Shown in pieces: positions 22,273 to 31,701 of a stretch of 64,000 nucleotides of DNA. Location: the NCBI GenBank assembly GCA_003222975.1, contig QHXN01000036.1, positions 1 through 64,000 of the forward strand. Reading direction: 5' to 3'. Within the stretch, counting starts at the first letter, position 1; each line of letters opens with the position of its first letter. Origin of the DNA: Acidobacteriota bacterium. Lineage in GTDB: Bacteria > Acidobacteriota > Blastocatellia > Pyrinomonadales > Pyrinomonadaceae. The translations under genes and the position numbers were made by a program. Below the pieces are notes generated by a model. The model worked only from the letters and a program-made list of their open reading frames with translations, ran no database searches and was not told where the DNA came from.

Positions 22273-23439
22273 TCAACCCTCGACGGCGGCCATGACGCTC
22301 GTCGCCTTCTTCTCATAGGCGGCGATGGTCGCGGCATTCTGGCGCTCGACGGCGGTCAGCGCGGCGTCCGTATAGTTCGGGTTGGGCTTGTACCAGTCGA
22401 AGCTGGCGAAGTATTTCTGGAGCCACCTGTCTTTGAAGACGCGACCGTGGCGCGCGTAGATTTCGTTGCGGAGCTTGCGCGCGTCTTCGAGGAACATGCC
22501 TTCGAGCAGCCCCGGCGTGATCGGCTGCGCGCTCAGGCTGTCCTTGAGCTTGCGCTCGTAGGCGACGATGGTGTCAATGTTCTTCCTCTCGGTGGCTGAA
22601 AGCTCCGGCTCGCCCTTGTCGTCGCGCGGGTAGTACCAGGGCTGGCTGTAGAAATACTGCGAGAGCCACTCGGTCTTGAACTGGCGGCCCCGGCGCGCGT
22701 AGATTTCGTTTCGCAGGAGACGCAACTCGTAGAGGCTGAGGCCGCGGAGCATGTCCTCGTTGACGAGACGGTTCTCGAACAGCTCCATGTCGCCGGGCGA
22801 GATGGCGGCGTGGCGCTGCTGGCGCTGCGCGGCCTCGATGGCCGAGAGGTTGTGCCGCTCGGTCGCGCTGAGGCTGTGCGGGTTGTAGGCGGGGTCGGGC
22901 TTGTACCAGTAGCGGTCTTCAAAATACTGTTGGAGCCACGGCTCGCCGTCGAAGCTCTTGCCGTGGATGGCTTCGACCTCGGCGCGCATGACGTGCCACT
23001 CTGCCGAAGAGTGCGTGCCGAGTTTCTCCTCGGTCATCTCGCGCGCCTGCCACCAGCGCAGGTCGCCCGGCTCGATCTGGTCGTGCTTGTCTGCTTCAAG
23101 CTCGCGTATCAGGTCGAGGTTCGCGCGCTCGGTTTCGTTCAGGGCGGAGTTGCTGAAATTCGGGTCGGGCTTGTACCAGGGTTGATCCTTGAGATACGCC
23201 TGTATGTCCCGTTCTTTGAAGACGCGACCGTGGCGACCGAAGACGACGCCGCGCAGGAGCGACAAGTCCGACAGTTCCAAGTCCTTCAACTCGTCGCGCG
23301 AGACTTTCTGCTTCGAGAAGTCAACGGCTTCGAACTTCTTGAAGGCGTCCGAGTCCTGCGCGGCGACGGATGCGGCGGCGACGAGGACGAGCGCGAGCGC
23401 GGCCAGCGCGCGTCCGAGTTTCGCTGTTGTGTTCGACAT
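22273..23439 (-). CDS. Secreted protein with four tandem YARHG-type domains
   Basis: Signal peptide MSNTTAKLGRALAALALVLVAAASVAAQ followed by four LRxExxARHGRxF...YF...WYKP...L...ER.N units. Confidence 0.88.
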   Translation of the reverse strand: MSNTTAKLGRALAALALVLVAAASVAAQDSDAFKKFEAVDFSKQKVSRDELKDLELSDLSLLRGVVFGRHGRVFKERDIQAYLKDQPWYKPDPNFSNSALNETERANLDLIRELEADKHDQIEPGDLRWWQAREMTEEKLGTHSSAEWHVMRAEVEAIHGKSFDGEPWLQQYFEDRYWYKPDPAYNPHSLSATERHNLSAIEAAQRQQRHAAISPGDMELFENRLVNEDMLRGLSLYELRLLRNEIYARRGRQFKTEWLSQYFYSQPWYYPRDDKGEPELSATERKNIDTIVAYERKLKDSLSAQPITPGLLEGMFLEDARKLRNEIYARHGRVFKDRWLQKYFASFDWYKPNPNYTDAALTAVERQNAATIAAYEKKATSVMAAVEG

Positions 23440-23492
23440 GGGGGAACGCTCCTTTAAGCGGGCCTGGCCTCCGGCCTGGGCCGTCAACGAAA

Positions 23493-24269
23493 TCAATTCT
23501 TTCTTCCCTGCGTGTTCGTGCGCGTCGGGCCGACGAAGCGCGTGACCCCGTCGGCGATGGCCTCGGCCATGCGTTGCTGCCCGGCCTCGGCCTTGATGAA
23601 CTGTGCATCCTGCGGGCTGCTGAGGACGACCATCTCGACGGTGACGACCGGCACGTCCGAGAAGATCGAGCCGGTCAGCGCGCCGCCCTGCTCGCGCCCG
23701 ACCTTCGTCTGCATGTCTGTCCGCACGCCGTTGTCGTTGAGCGCGCCGCCCAAGTCGTCGGCCAACGCGGCGTGGACGGCCTCTGCCGCGCGCCGGCTCT
23801 CGTCAATCACGCCCTGCGAAGGGCCGGTCGTCCCGTCCTTGGCGCGACCCTGGCGGTCGGGGTAATAGACGGCGTAGCCGCGCTCCTCGCTGGCGTCGCA
23901 GTGGAGGCGAATCATCAGCGCGGCGCGGGCGCGGTTGGCGACGAGCGCGCGGTCTTTGTTCCGCACAAGCTCGTCCTCCGACCCCTTCGTCAGTACGACC
24001 GTGTAGCCCCTGGCTTCGAGCAGGTCGCGCAGCTTCGAGGCGACGGCCCAGTCCACGTGCGCCTCGCTCGTCCCGTTCTGGACGTTCTTGCCGCTGGCGA
24101 CCTCCGAGGGGTGGCCGGGGTCTATGCAGACGACCGTGCGCGCGGGCGCTTCGCCTGCCTTCGGCGCGGGCGTCGGCGTCGCGCTTTTCGAGACGGCCTT
24201 TTTGACCTGGGCCGCGGGCGCGCAGAGTTGTAAAGCGAGCAGGAGGACGACGGGTGTCAGCAACTTCAT
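23493..24269 (-). CDS. N-acetylmuramoyl-L-alanine amidase (Amidase_3)
   Basis: VVCIDPGHPSE...SKLRDLLEARGYTVVLTKGS...RLHCDAS...VTVEMVVLS. Confidence 0.88.
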   Translation of the reverse strand: MKLLTPVVLLLALQLCAPAAQVKKAVSKSATPTPAPKAGEAPARTVVCIDPGHPSEVASGKNVQNGTSEAHVDWAVASKLRDLLEARGYTVVLTKGSEDELVRNKDRALVANRARAALMIRLHCDASEERGYAVYYPDRQGRAKDGTTGPSQGVIDESRRAAEAVHAALADDLGGALNDNGVRTDMQTKVGREQGGALTGSIFSDVPVVTVEMVVLSSPQDAQFIKAEAGQQRMAEAIADGVTRFVGPTRTNTQGRKN

Positions 24270-25781: not shown

Positions 25782-27668
25782 ATGACACGCTTGCAATTTC
25801 GCTCTACGGGTCGCCGACGGCGTTGGGCCGCGCTCTTCGTCGCGCTCTTCCTCCTGCTCCAGACTTCGGCGCTCCCCGCGTTGGCCGCCTCCGCGGGCGC
25901 GGACGACGAAGACGCGCCGCCCTCGAAGGCGGAGGAGAACGAGGCGCTCGTCGAGTCGCTCATAAACTTCTTCTTCGGGCAGGCGAAGCCCGCGGCCACC
26001 CCGCAGGCGACGCCGCAGCCTTCGCCCGCGCCCACGCAGACGCCCGCCGCTCAGACGCCGCCAGCCGGCGAAGGCGCGGGCAAGGCGGGCGAGTCGAAGA
26101 AGGCCGAGTCGAAGCCTTTGCAATACCCCCTGCCCGACTGGACGCCGCTCGGACACGCCGGGAAGAAGACCGTGGAGTCGAAGGACGAGTCGAGCGAGGA
26201 GTTCATCCCGATGCCCGACCGCTGGCGCTTCCCCTTCCCGCGCCACAACCGCTACAAGCCGACGATGGAGACGCCGTGGGTGACGGGCAGCACATTCGAT
26301 CCTTACAACCAGAACGTTTTGAAGGCCGACTATCCGGTCTTCGGCAACCACACGTTCCTCAACCTGAACTTGCAGAGCGCGAGCGCCATCAACCCGCGCG
26401 TCGTCTCGGCGGGCGGGCGCAAAGAGCAGTTCTTCACCAACCAGAACTTCGTCATGGGCGCGGAGATTTTCAAGGGCGACACCGTGTTCCAGCCCAAGAG
26501 CTGGGCCGTGCGCGTCACGACGGTCGCCAACGTCAACTTCCTCGCCAACAACACGCTCAACCCCTTCGACTCGAAGCGCGGAACCGCGCGCCTCGCCGTC
26601 GAGGAGGCGTTCGTCGAGAAGCGCCTCGCCGTCGTCAGCCCGAACTTCGACTTCCTCAGCGTGCGCGTCGGGATGCAGAACCTCAACTCGGACTTCCGAG
26701 GCTTCCTCTTCCAGGACAACCAGCTCGGCGTGCGCCTGTTCGGAACTCTGAACTCGAACCGCGACCAGTACAACCTCGCCTACTTCTCGATGCGCCAGCG
26801 CGACATCACCTCGCAGCTCCACAGCTTCGACAACCGCCATCAGAACGTCTTCCTCGTGAACTGGTTCCGCCAGGACTTCGGCAAGAAGGGCTACACGGCG
26901 CTCTTCAACTTCGTCTTCAACAACGACAATGGCCGCTTCACGGGAGACCGCCACACCTTGAACGTCGCCTACCTCGGCTTTCACGGCGACGGCAAGTGGG
27001 GCAAATTGAACGTTGACCACGCCTTCTACTGGGCGCTCGGCCACGACGACTTCAACCGCCTCGCCGCGCGCCCGCAGAGCGTCAACGCGCAGATGGGCGC
27101 GTTCGAGGCCGCGATTGACCGCGACTGGGTTCGCTGGCGCGCGTCGTTCTTCTACGCGTCGGGCGACGGGAACTTGAACGACGACAAGGCGACCGGCTTC
27201 GACATGATCCAGGACAACCCGAACTTCGCGGGCGGCCCGTTCCAGTTCTGGACGCAGCAGCAGACGGTGGTCGCCGGCCCCGTCGGTTTTTTGAAGAACA
27301 AGTTTTCCTTACTCCCGAACCTTCGGAACAAGTTCGACAACCGCTCGAACTTCGTCAATCCGGGGCTGCTGCTCTGGAACATCGGCGCGGACTTGAGGGT
27401 GACGCCGAAGCTCAAGATGGTGACGAACCTCTCTTACATCAGGTTCGCGCGCGCCGGGATTCTCCAACAGATCGCGCACGACCCGGCGATTAACGGCGGC
27501 GTCGGCACAGACCTGAGCGTCGGCGCGAAGTTCCGCCCGTTCGAGAACGAGAACCTCTTTATCGTCACCGGCGCGGCGGTGCTCTTCCCGCAGGGCGGCT
27601 ACGGGCGCTTGATACAGAGCACGCGCCCGCTCGTCTCGCCGACCTTCGCCTTCCAGGTGGCGTTCTAG
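25782..27668 (+). CDS. Predicted outer-membrane beta-barrel (porin-like) protein
   Basis: Signal peptide, Pro/Thr-rich linker, amphipathic alternating strands through to C-terminal PTFAFQVAF. Confidence 0.75.
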   Translation: MTRLQFRSTGRRRRWAALFVALFLLLQTSALPALAASAGADDEDAPPSKAEENEALVESLINFFFGQAKPAATPQATPQPSPAPTQTPAAQTPPAGEGAGKAGESKKAESKPLQYPLPDWTPLGHAGKKTVESKDESSEEFIPMPDRWRFPFPRHNRYKPTMETPWVTGSTFDPYNQNVLKADYPVFGNHTFLNLNLQSASAINPRVVSAGGRKEQFFTNQNFVMGAEIFKGDTVFQPKSWAVRVTTVANVNFLANNTLNPFDSKRGTARLAVEEAFVEKRLAVVSPNFDFLSVRVGMQNLNSDFRGFLFQDNQLGVRLFGTLNSNRDQYNLAYFSMRQRDITSQLHSFDNRHQNVFLVNWFRQDFGKKGYTALFNFVFNNDNGRFTGDRHTLNVAYLGFHGDGKWGKLNVDHAFYWALGHDDFNRLAARPQSVNAQMGAFEAAIDRDWVRWRASFFYASGDGNLNDDKATGFDMIQDNPNFAGGPFQFWTQQQTVVAGPVGFLKNKFSLLPNLRNKFDNRSNFVNPGLLLWNIGADLRVTPKLKMVTNLSYIRFARAGILQQIAHDPAINGGVGTDLSVGAKFRPFENENLFIVTGAAVLFPQGGYGRLIQSTRPLVSPTFAFQVAF

Positions 27669-27693
27669 TTAAGACCTTCTTCGGACAAACAAC

Positions 27694-30600
27694 ATGAAGA
27701 CCGTCAGCAATCATCCACGCACGAAGCGGCAGCAGTTGATCAGTCTCTTCGCGGCCCTCGTCGTCTTCGGCGTCGCCGCCTTCGCCCTCTTCCCCGTCCA
27801 CTCCGCGGGCGTCGCCACGAATGCGACGAAGCCCCCGGAGCAGCCCGCCGCGACCGAGTCAGCCGACGAAGGCGACAACGCCCCGGCAGAGACGGACGTG
27901 CACCAAGAGGGCGACAAGCCGCCCGCGCCTTCCGACGGCTGCGTGAAGTGCCACACCGGAGTCGGCGACCCGCACCAGACGAAGCTCAGAAACGGCCCCT
28001 CGTGCGTTGACTGTCACGGCGGCAACGGCGCGGCGACGACCAAGAGCGAAGCGCACACGGCCAAGCCGAAGCACCCGGAGAAGTGGCGCAGCTCGGCCAA
28101 CCCCGAAGAGACCTTCACGCTCCTCAACAACGAGAACTGGGACTGGATTCGCTTCGTCAACCCTTCAGACCTGCGCGTCGCGATGACGACCTGCGGCAAG
28201 TGCCACGAGTCTTACATCAAGAGCCTGCAAAAGAGCGCGATGACCAACAGCCCGCAGGTCTATTCGACCGCGCTCTACAACAACGGCTCGCTCCCGACGA
28301 AGTACGCGCTCATCGGCGAGAACTACAGCCCTTCGGGCGAGCCGCAGATCGCGCGCACCATCCCGCCGCCCACCGACAAGGAGATACGCGAGAAAGGCAT
28401 CCTGCCCTACCTCTTCCCCTTCCCGCGTTTCGAGATCGGCCAGCCCCTCTCGGTCGCCTTCTGGCGTCCGTTCGAGCGCGGCGGCGGGCCGAAGTCCGAA
28501 CTCGGCAACCCGAACGGCCAGGACGTGCCGGGCCAGCCCGACGTGTCTCTCTCGAACCGCGGCTACGGCACGCAGGCACGCGTTGACCCCGTCATCCTCG
28601 GCGCGCAGAAGGTTCGTTTGAACGACCCCGTGATGTCCTTCATGGGCACGAACAACGCGCCCGGCGACTACCGCAATTCGGGCTGTGCCGCCTGTCACGT
28701 CGTCTATGCGAACGACCGCTCGTACTACAACTCCGGCCCGTATGCACGTTTCGGCAACCGCGGCTACACCGCGCCCGACAACCCCGACCCGAACATCCCG
28801 AAGGGCGAGTCGGGCCATCCCTTGGAGCACAAGTTCACCAAGTCAATCCCTTCGAGCCAGTGCATCACCTGCCACGTCCACAACGGCAACGGTTTCATCA
28901 ACACCTACCTCGGCTACATGTGGTGGGACGAGCAGACCGACGGCGAGTTCATCTATCCCAAGCAGCAGCACAACCCGACGCCCGCAGAGTTGGACAAGGC
29001 CGGCAAATTCAACCCGGAAGAGGCCGCCGCGCGCGGCAAGTGGAGCGACCCCGAATTCCTCTTCGAGGTCAGCAAGCTCAACTCGCAGATGCGGCACATG
29101 CAGGTCTCGGACTACCACGGCCACGGCTGGATGTTCCGCCGCGCCTACAAGATGGATCGCAAGGGCCAGTTCTTGGACAAGGACGGAGGCGTCATCTCCT
29201 ACGACGACCCAGACCTCTACGAGCACGACAACAAGCCCGGCAAGGCCGTCCACCTCAAAGACATCCACCTTGAGAAGGGCATGCACTGCGTTGACTGCCA
29301 CTACTCGCAGGACATGCACGGCACGGGCAAAATCTACGGCGACCGCCGCGCCGTCATCGAGGTCGCGTGCGAGGACTGCCACGGGACGGTCGCGAAGCGC
29401 GTCACGGCCACGACGATTCGCACCTCCGGCTTCGGCGCTCCCGACGGCGGCAACTCGATGAACCACCCGGCGCGCGGCAACCCCTTCAACCGCGCTCGCT
29501 TCGTCGAGCGCGACGGCAAGCTCTTCCAGCGCTCGATGGTCGAGCAGAACGACCCCGCCACGGGCAAGATTATGGAGTGGGAAGTGACGCAGGTGTTGGA
29601 CACCATCACGCCCGGCAACCCGCACTACAACCCGAAGTCGGCGCGCGCCAAGACCATCATGCGCGACAACGAGACGTGGGGGGCCGTGCCCGCGGACGCC
29701 AAGCAGCTCGCGCACGACAACTCGCGCGTCTCCTGCGTCGCCTGCCACTCGTCCTGGGTGACGAACTGCTGGGGCTGTCACCTCTCGGCTGCCGTCAACA
29801 CCAAGAAGCCGATGCTCCACGAGGAGGGCGACGAGTCGCAGGTCTATCCTTCTTACAACCCGCAGGTCTTGCGCACCGACGGCTACATGCTCGGCATTGA
29901 CGGCTCGGTGCAAGGCCACAAGGTCATGCCCGTCCGCTCTTCGAGCGCCGTCACGGTGAGCGTCACGGACGGCACGCGCGGCGTCGCCGTCAACCACGCG
30001 CCGACCATCTCTTCTGCCGGGTACAACGGCAACGCCTTCAACACGCACCCGCCGCACACGGTGCGCGCCACCGAGACGAAGGGCTGCACCGACTGCCACG
30101 TCTCGAAGAACAACGACAACAACTCCTGGATGGCCTCCGTCCTCATGCTCGGCTCCAATCAGGTCAACTTCATGGGCCGCTACATCTACGTCGCCGAGGG
30201 CAAGGACGGACTCTCCGCGACGATGGTCGCCGAGCAGACCGAGCCGCAGGCCGTCTTCGGCAGTCACCTCCACCAGATCGCCTACCCCGACTGGTTCGCC
30301 AAACACCAGGCGCGCGGCGGCAAGCTTGAAGAGAACTACGCGCACCGCGGCTCTGAAATAAATCAGGTGCAGCAGTACGGCGAATTCCTTCTCGCCGCCG
30401 CCGGAAAGAACGGCTTCGTCGTTTACGACATCGCCAACGTCGCCGACAAGGACTTCAGCCAGCGCATCGTTGACTCGCCCTTCTCGCGCATCGGCCAGAA
30501 GCTCTACGTCCGCACGAAGGACGCGACCGGAGTGGCCGTCGGCTCGCCTGCCCCGCTCGACCCGCGCCGCAACCCCGGCCAGACCGAAGACCAACGGAAG

Positions 30601-31641
30601 TGGCTTGAGCTGAACGAGGAGCAGCCCGTCGCGCCGCTCTACGGCTACGCCTTCATCTCCGACCGTCAGGAGGGACTCGTCACCGTCAACATCGAGACGC
30701 TCACCGACGGCGTCAACACCAACAACCATCTGAAGCGCGGCGCGACCTACAACCCTGAAGGGCGTCTGACGAACGCGCGCAACGTCCAGATAGTCGGCAA
30801 CTACGCATACATTCTGACCGACCACGCCCTTGAAGTGGTCAACATCTCAGACCCCTTGAACCCGCGCTGGGCGAGCGAGGTCGCTCTGCACGACCCGCGC
30901 TCGCTCGCCGTGCAGTTCCGTTACTGCTTCCTGACGGACGCCGAAGGCATGAAGGTGCTCGACGTGACCGACCTCGAACACCCGCAGCCCGTCGCGGGCG
31001 CGACCGTGCCTCTGCACAACGCGCAGGGCATCTATCTGGCGCGCGAGTACGCCTACGTCGGCGACGGCGTGGACGGCCTCGCCATCGTGGACATCGAGCG
31101 CCCGGAGCAGCCCAAGCTCGACCAGCTCTTCAACGACGGCGGCAAGATGAACGACACGCGCGACGCCAAGCTCGGCATGGCCTACGCCAGCCTCATCGCC
31201 TACGTCGCCGACGGCAAGAACGGCCTGAAGGTCGTCGAGCTGACGAACCCGAACAGCGTGCCCGGAAACCTCGGCTACAGCCCCCGGCCCGCGCCGCGAG
31301 TCGTCGCCTACTATCCGACGAAGGGGCCTGCCGCGCAGGTCTCCGAGGGCTACCGCCGCGACCGCGCGGTTGACGAGAGCGGAAACCAGGTCGCCATCTT
31401 CGGTCGCCGCGGCGCGCGCCCCTTCAACCTCGAAGAGCAGCGCCGCATGTACCTCCACGACGGCAAGCTCTACACCGTCACGGACGAGCCGGGCCAGCCC
31501 ACCGCCGGCAAGACCGCGCAGGCAGGCACTTGGATTCAGTCGCTCTCGAAGCTCTTCGGCTTTAGCTTCGGATGGCTCGGCCTCGCCGCCGTCTTCCCCG
31601 CCGCCCTCGTCTGGCAGCGGAAGCGACGCGTGCGCAAATAA
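27694..31641 (+). CDS. Decaheme c-type cytochrome fused to LVIVD-type repeats with C-terminal TM-KRKRR tail
   Basis: Ten CxxCH motifs (CVKCH, CVDCH, CGKCH, CAACH, CITCH, CVDCH, CEDCH, CVACH, CWGCH, CTDCH) then repeats such as AYVGDGVDGLAIVDIERPEQPKL. Confidence 0.9.
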   Translation: MKTVSNHPRTKRQQLISLFAALVVFGVAAFALFPVHSAGVATNATKPPEQPAATESADEGDNAPAETDVHQEGDKPPAPSDGCVKCHTGVGDPHQTKLRNGPSCVDCHGGNGAATTKSEAHTAKPKHPEKWRSSANPEETFTLLNNENWDWIRFVNPSDLRVAMTTCGKCHESYIKSLQKSAMTNSPQVYSTALYNNGSLPTKYALIGENYSPSGEPQIARTIPPPTDKEIREKGILPYLFPFPRFEIGQPLSVAFWRPFERGGGPKSELGNPNGQDVPGQPDVSLSNRGYGTQARVDPVILGAQKVRLNDPVMSFMGTNNAPGDYRNSGCAACHVVYANDRSYYNSGPYARFGNRGYTAPDNPDPNIPKGESGHPLEHKFTKSIPSSQCITCHVHNGNGFINTYLGYMWWDEQTDGEFIYPKQQHNPTPAELDKAGKFNPEEAAARGKWSDPEFLFEVSKLNSQMRHMQVSDYHGHGWMFRRAYKMDRKGQFLDKDGGVISYDDPDLYEHDNKPGKAVHLKDIHLEKGMHCVDCHYSQDMHGTGKIYGDRRAVIEVACEDCHGTVAKRVTATTIRTSGFGAPDGGNSMNHPARGNPFNRARFVERDGKLFQRSMVEQNDPATGKIMEWEVTQVLDTITPGNPHYNPKSARAKTIMRDNETWGAVPADAKQLAHDNSRVSCVACHSSWVTNCWGCHLSAAVNTKKPMLHEEGDESQVYPSYNPQVLRTDGYMLGIDGSVQGHKVMPVRSSSAVTVSVTDGTRGVAVNHAPTISSAGYNGNAFNTHPPHTVRATETKGCTDCHVSKNNDNNSWMASVLMLGSNQVNFMGRYIYVAEGKDGLSATMVAEQTEPQAVFGSHLHQIAYPDWFAKHQARGGKLEENYAHRGSEINQVQQYGEFLLAAAGKNGFVVYDIANVADKDFSQRIVDSPFSRIGQKLYVRTKDATGVAVGSPAPLDPRRNPGQTEDQRKWLELNEEQPVAPLYGYAFISDRQEGLVTVNIETLTDGVNTNNHLKRGATYNPEGRLTNARNVQIVGNYAYILTDHALEVVNISDPLNPRWASEVALHDPRSLAVQFRYCFLTDAEGMKVLDVTDLEHPQPVAGATVPLHNAQGIYLAREYAYVGDGVDGLAIVDIERPEQPKLDQLFNDGGKMNDTRDAKLGMAYASLIAYVADGKNGLKVVELTNPNSVPGNLGYSPRPAPRVVAYYPTKGPAAQVSEGYRRDRAVDESGNQVAIFGRRGARPFNLEEQRRMYLHDGKLYTVTDEPGQPTAGKTAQAGTWIQSLSKLFGFSFGWLGLAAVFPAALVWQRKRRVRK

Positions 31642-31663: not shown

Positions 31664-31701
31664 GAAGCGGCGCGGCTGAAGTGTTTCAGCCGCGCCGCTT
31701 C
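31664..31701 (+). terminator. Hairpin GAAGCGGCGCGGCTGAA/TTCAGCCGCGCCGCTTC downstream of cytochrome
   Basis: 17-bp perfect stem, 4-nt loop, about 20 nt past the stop. Confidence 0.7.

Follow-up and report, generated by a model that had tools for sequence, protein, structure and literature searches.

An AlgE-like barrel and an ExtM-related decaheme-propeller cytochrome: a candidate outer-membrane respiratory module in about ten bacterial phyla

We analyzed a 64,000-nucleotide stretch of DNA from an Acidobacteriota bacterium (the window) that carries adjacent genes for a predicted outer-membrane beta-barrel and for a secreted decaheme cytochrome fused to an LVIVD beta-propeller, and found that the two are co-encoded in about ten phyla. 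Given this spread, and the electron-transfer genes that usually accompany the pair, it looks like the terminus, at the outer membrane, of a respiratory chain in which the cytochrome would be a multiheme oxidoreductase and the barrel its gate or docking partner, a reading that we favor with a confidence stopping just short of an even chance. A further, less probable reading is that of a new outer-membrane respiratory module in about ten phyla, most of them uncultured: electrons would leave a cNMP-regulated Fe-S/cytochrome b complex and reach an extracellular acceptor by way of the AlgE-like barrel and a decaheme-propeller oxidoreductase of ExtM type, whose active site would hold Cys or Ser (Sec in relatives).

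The barrel-cytochrome pair is apparently undescribed. Searches of open-licence papers for LVIVD with cytochromes or heme, or for porin-multiheme systems in these phyla, turned up no account of it, and neither the barrel nor the decaheme-LVIVD fusion has a family model of its own in Pfam or NCBIfam. The pair and its partner module are present in hundreds of soil, sediment and groundwater genomes; were they respiratory, Acidobacteriota, Planctomycetota, Rokubacteria, Zixibacteria and others would have a capacity for anaerobic or extracellular redox reactions that escapes current porin-cytochrome searches, which use MtrB, OmbB, ExtB/E and ExtI models (PMC7399161).

The gene pair and its products

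The open reading frames, their lengths and the 25-nt gap between them agree with those given in an earlier note on this DNA (Table 1). A strong hairpin, with no T-run after it, lies directly 3' of the cytochrome stop codon and is likely the transcript end of a two-gene unit. The flanking genes are housekeeping genes unrelated to the pair, encoding a DUF2071 protein and, by sequence, trigger factor followed by ClpP, ClpX and Lon. Elsewhere in the window, at 22273-23496, a gene for a protein with four YARHG domains adjoins a serine/threonine kinase gene.

Table 1. Features of the barrel-cytochrome locus, in window coordinates
Feature	Position	Strand	Basis
Outer-membrane beta-barrel protein, 628 aa	25782..27668	+	ORF; AlphaFold2 model; Foldseek AlgE E 3e-16
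Barrel strands, aa 191-627	26352..27662	+	DSSP on model
Secreted decaheme c-type cytochrome fused to LVIVD beta-propeller, 1315 aa	27694..31641	+	ORF; CxxCH count; PF08309; model
Sec-type signal peptide, ~aa 1-38	27694..27807	+	Sequence; simple hydropathy
Heme domain, ten CxxCH (aa 83-802), Geobacter ExtM homologue	27940..30099	+	Motif scan; hhalign E 2.8e-29
Ser751 codon	29944..29946	+	Cys/Ser in cytochrome family; Cys or in-frame TGA in ExtM relatives
LVIVD beta-propeller, ~aa 830-1207	30181..31314	+	PF08309; model; propeller fold matches
C-terminal TM-basic tail (FGWLGLAAVFPAALVWQRKRRVRK), lineage-specific	31567..31638	+	Sequence; 6/80 homologues
Hairpin, 17-bp stem	31664..31701	+	-37.7 kcal/mol, z -5.6

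The first protein had been taken for a beta-barrel in the earlier note, and structure prediction, which could have overturned that assignment, returned an 18-stranded barrel (AlphaFold2, 65-homologue alignment; mean pLDDT 78, core mostly >90) preceded by a disordered N-terminus. The protein consists of a signal helix, a low-complexity Pro/Thr linker and the C-terminal barrel, the linker replacing a CarboxypepD_reg domain that is found in most relatives. The top fold match in the PDB (Foldseek) was the alginate export porin AlgE, followed by OprD-type and other porins; none of the 50 matches listed was an MtrB-type structure. Given that AlgE- and OprD-like folds are those of solute channels, the model supports a porin-type gate. 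The likeness to AlgE lies in the 18-stranded fold, whereas identity is 12-13% and no alginate genes lie nearby. At an E cut-off of 1, neither Pfam nor NCBIfam matched the barrel protein, so that it has no MtrB-family match, and PDB sequence searches gave no usable relative of either protein.

The cytochrome contains exactly ten CxxCH motifs and no further Cys pair, the number claimed previously, with the last motif ending one base beyond the 30098 that had been given. All ten are retained in 70 aligned homologues, and the third (window aa 167-171) occurs as CX2CH, CX3CH or CX4CH among relatives, so that the set is not a product of chance. Fourteen non-motif His residues are conserved in at least 90% of the 70 homologues; 13 of them lie in the heme region, a number that would suffice to give each of the ten hemes bis-His ligation. 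A hydrophobic N-terminal stretch is found in 75 of 80 homologues by simple hydropathy. The model of aa 70-1269 (AlphaFold2, 70 homologues; pLDDT 84, pTM 0.89) comprises a helical heme domain followed by a beta-propeller; both AlphaFold2 models are of single proteins without hemes. Foldseek with the whole cytochrome returned propeller matches only and none for the heme fold, which is therefore not placed. The protein belongs to the LVIVD family (PF08309) by score (71 bits against a gathering threshold of 20.2, E 4e-20) and by the propeller seen in both the model and the fold matches. Three LVIVD stretches pass singly, fewer than the about five repeats counted earlier.

The C-terminal TM-basic tail that had been reported is indeed present in the window cytochrome, but it was rejected as a defining or core feature of the family given that it occurs in only 6 of the 80 homologues. 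This tail, together with an exosortase encoded in the window's genome, is consistent with a barrel that exports or anchors the cytochrome, through an AlgE-like exit and with the propeller as a plug, and that stands outside any passage of substrate or electrons. The best fold match being an export porin is consistent with the same role, as is the N-terminal CarboxypepD_reg-like domain of the barrel relatives. However, the rarity of the tail speaks against it, and a folded multiheme protein of 1300 aa would be too large for an 18-stranded pore; we consider such a role very unlikely.

Linkage, spread and partner genes

In a survey of 119 genomes of the window's family, 44 encode the cytochrome (G028, with a weak and only partial match, was left out). 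The barrel is encoded in 43 of these 44 and in none of the 75 others (Fisher 9e-32, a value that ignores kinship), and in the sole exception the locus ends at a contig end. A scan of 84,980 species genomes gave 393 relatives, the best 80 of which, a sample biased to near relatives, were analyzed. In 77 of these 80 loci the barrel gene immediately precedes that of the cytochrome on the same strand; two of the remaining three are cut by contig ends, and in one the barrel is divergent. The pairing suggested in the earlier note stood or fell with such linkage, and the two genes proved to be almost always linked.

The best 80 of the 393 relatives come from Acidobacteriota, Planctomycetota, Verrucomicrobiota, Rokubacteria, Nitrospirota, Binatota, Zixibacteria, Ignavibacteria/Chlorobi, Calditrichota, KSB1 and one delta-proteobacterium now in Myxococcota. 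Two loci labelled Pseudomonadota sit within Acidobacteriota in the tree and are probably mislabelled bins. The window copy lies apart from the typical Pyrinomonadaceae clade, grouping with two other family genomes and with a Vicinamibacteria locus (61% identity; support 100) that carries a full electron-transfer module. The window's genome also holds a second barrel and decaheme-LVIVD pair (L042, 12708-19566, contig C23), which belongs to the typical clade of the family and adjoins a gene of the neighbour family N2 described below.

Clustering of the neighbours at the cytochrome loci gave recurrent families N2 to N8, which form an electron-transfer module of cNMP/Fe-S protein, membrane b-type cytochrome, and membrane and periplasmic multihemes. 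N2 proteins are secreted and have tandem HbpS-like domains; in roughly half of the loci their gene adjoins that of the barrel (e.g. L110:4102-5871). N3 combines 2Fe-2S, 4Fe-4S and cNMP-binding domains; N4 has a TM segment and ten hemes; N5 is cytochrome c554-like; N6, a b-type cytochrome of the membrane, has two conserved pairs of His; N7 comprises nonaheme cytochromes; and N8 is NuoE/F-like. Most of these genes lie in one run at Ignavibacteria, Zixibacteria and Chlorobi loci. Among 20 genomes of various phyla with N3 unlinked to the pair, 16 encode N3 relatives elsewhere in the genome.

The window's pair stands alone, which counts against reading it as part of such a module; the module is found on another contig of the same genome (C114; L133, 5791-15284), where an N3-N6 fusion is encoded together with an FHA-heptaheme protein, an Fe-S flavoprotein, a tetraheme and two nonaheme (N7) cytochromes. 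Of the 44 cytochrome genomes of the window's family, 43 encode this fusion, as do 4 of the 75 others (1.5e-26, again ignoring kinship). Direct search found no N4, a nonaheme/decaheme membrane cytochrome, in the window's genome, and the FHA-heptaheme protein seems to take its place.

In the favored reading, electrons from NAD(P)H or quinol would enter the Fe-S/cytochrome b unit and pass to the membrane multiheme and then to the periplasmic multihemes, from which the decaheme protein of the outer membrane would receive them. The flow might instead run inward, with the pair oxidizing an external or periplasmic donor in lithotrophs and feeding NuoEF/NuoG-like proteins by reverse flow. Consistent with this, NuoE/F-like and NuoG-N-like proteins occur in many of the clusters, and the carriers include Rokubacteria and Nitrospirota; but no sequence feature fixes the direction of the electrons, and we regard inward flow as unlikely.

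Homology to ExtM and the Cys/Ser/Sec site

Profile comparison indicates a clear homology between the heme domain and ExtM of Geobacter (hhalign probability 99.8, E 2.8e-29, 493 columns), and the NCBIfam ExtM model (NF040943) scored 82 bits on the cytochrome, below its equivalog cut-off of 800. The possibility that the match was mere multiheme background was rejected, as the profile alignment is collinear. ExtM is encoded within extHIJKLMNOPQS, the porin ExtI of which is required to convert selenite and tellurite, an ability lost in the ExtI mutant, whereas Fe(III) citrate is reduced without it (PMC5877670); the extHIJKL part adds to metal reduction in certain backgrounds (PMC6148476).

The Ext cluster (PMC5877670) resembles the window-type module in its cytochrome b, Fe-S proteins and further multihemes, and at least one genome has the ExtM gene immediately after that of ExtI, which matches the gene order of the barrel-cytochrome pair. 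ExtM is, however, a 12-heme cytochrome, whereas the window protein has ten hemes and a fused LVIVD propeller, and the Fe-S/cNMP partners also differ. Comparisons gave no detectable relation between the barrel and ExtI, of the Porin_O_P type, and ExtI homology was rejected; any transfer of function from the Ext cluster is therefore carried by the cytochrome only.

Between hemes 9 and 10 the cytochromes share the motif R-S-x-[C/S]-A, with Cys in 36 and Ser in 34 of 70 aligned rows; the window protein has Ser751. This position pairs with Cys467 of Geobacter ExtM in the profile alignment. Six further ExtM relatives from Desulfobacterota were read, and five of them (L157-L161) have an in-frame TGA at this codon, in the context TPG*QDF or VPG*QDF and with more hemes downstream. 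SelB was found in all 23 tested genomes with such relatives, and a small hairpin with weak shuffle support follows the TGA by about 16-21 nt. The TGA thus probably encodes selenocysteine. A single position held by Cys, Sec or Ser, for which a pure wire would have no need, suggests catalysis rather than conduction alone; the Ser at the presumed catalytic site of the window cytochrome counts against the catalytic reading there. Through the link to ExtM and the Cys/Ser/Sec site, the chemistry lends itself to direct tests.

Comparison with MtrAB-type systems and the role of the pair

As in the MtrAB and OmaB-OmbB systems, an outer-membrane barrel gene adjoins the gene of a multiheme c-type cytochrome, yet the barrel differs in fold, size and family and the cytochrome belongs to another family. 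Those systems also have a separate surface decaheme lipoprotein (MtrC/OmcB type), which was found neither in the window nor as a recurrent neighbour. By its barrel family and locus content the pair thus does not qualify as an MtrAB-type conduit, and the earlier statement that the architecture departs from MtrAB holds. The proposal of an extracellular conduit, made in the same note, is supported only in part: the barrel and the gene linkage stood.

In such a conduit the cytochrome would thread or dock on the barrel and hand electrons on directly to minerals, humics, electrodes or partner cells. A porin-multiheme gene pair with a conserved inner chain would suit this role, as would the contribution of Ext clusters to Fe(III)/Mn(IV) oxide reduction in Geobacter (PMC6148476) and the first description of LVIVD repeats in cell-surface proteins (PMC2447325). 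Against it, the barrel is AlgE-like rather than of the large MtrB type, the locus has no MtrC-like partner, the Cys/Ser/Sec site suggests chemistry, and a protein with about 72 aa per heme would not resemble the compact wire of MtrA type; inside an 18-stranded barrel, an 80-kDa heme domain would probably find no room. We therefore hold a conduit, the main rival reading, to be possible but doubtful, and a porin-fed terminal oxidoreductase to be at least as likely.

In the terminal-oxidoreductase reading, the decaheme protein would most likely act on a substrate that enters through the barrel or is met at it, a route modelled on the one put forward for ExtI and the Geobacter Ext cytochromes, and the propeller would dock to the barrel or the envelope. 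Porin-multiheme clusters of Verrucomicrobia, proposed to transfer electrons to humics (He et al. 2017, PMC5615132), likewise pair a porin with a multiheme cytochrome; as described, they differ from the window pair in that their periplasmic cytochrome has eight hemes and their porin at least 20 strands.
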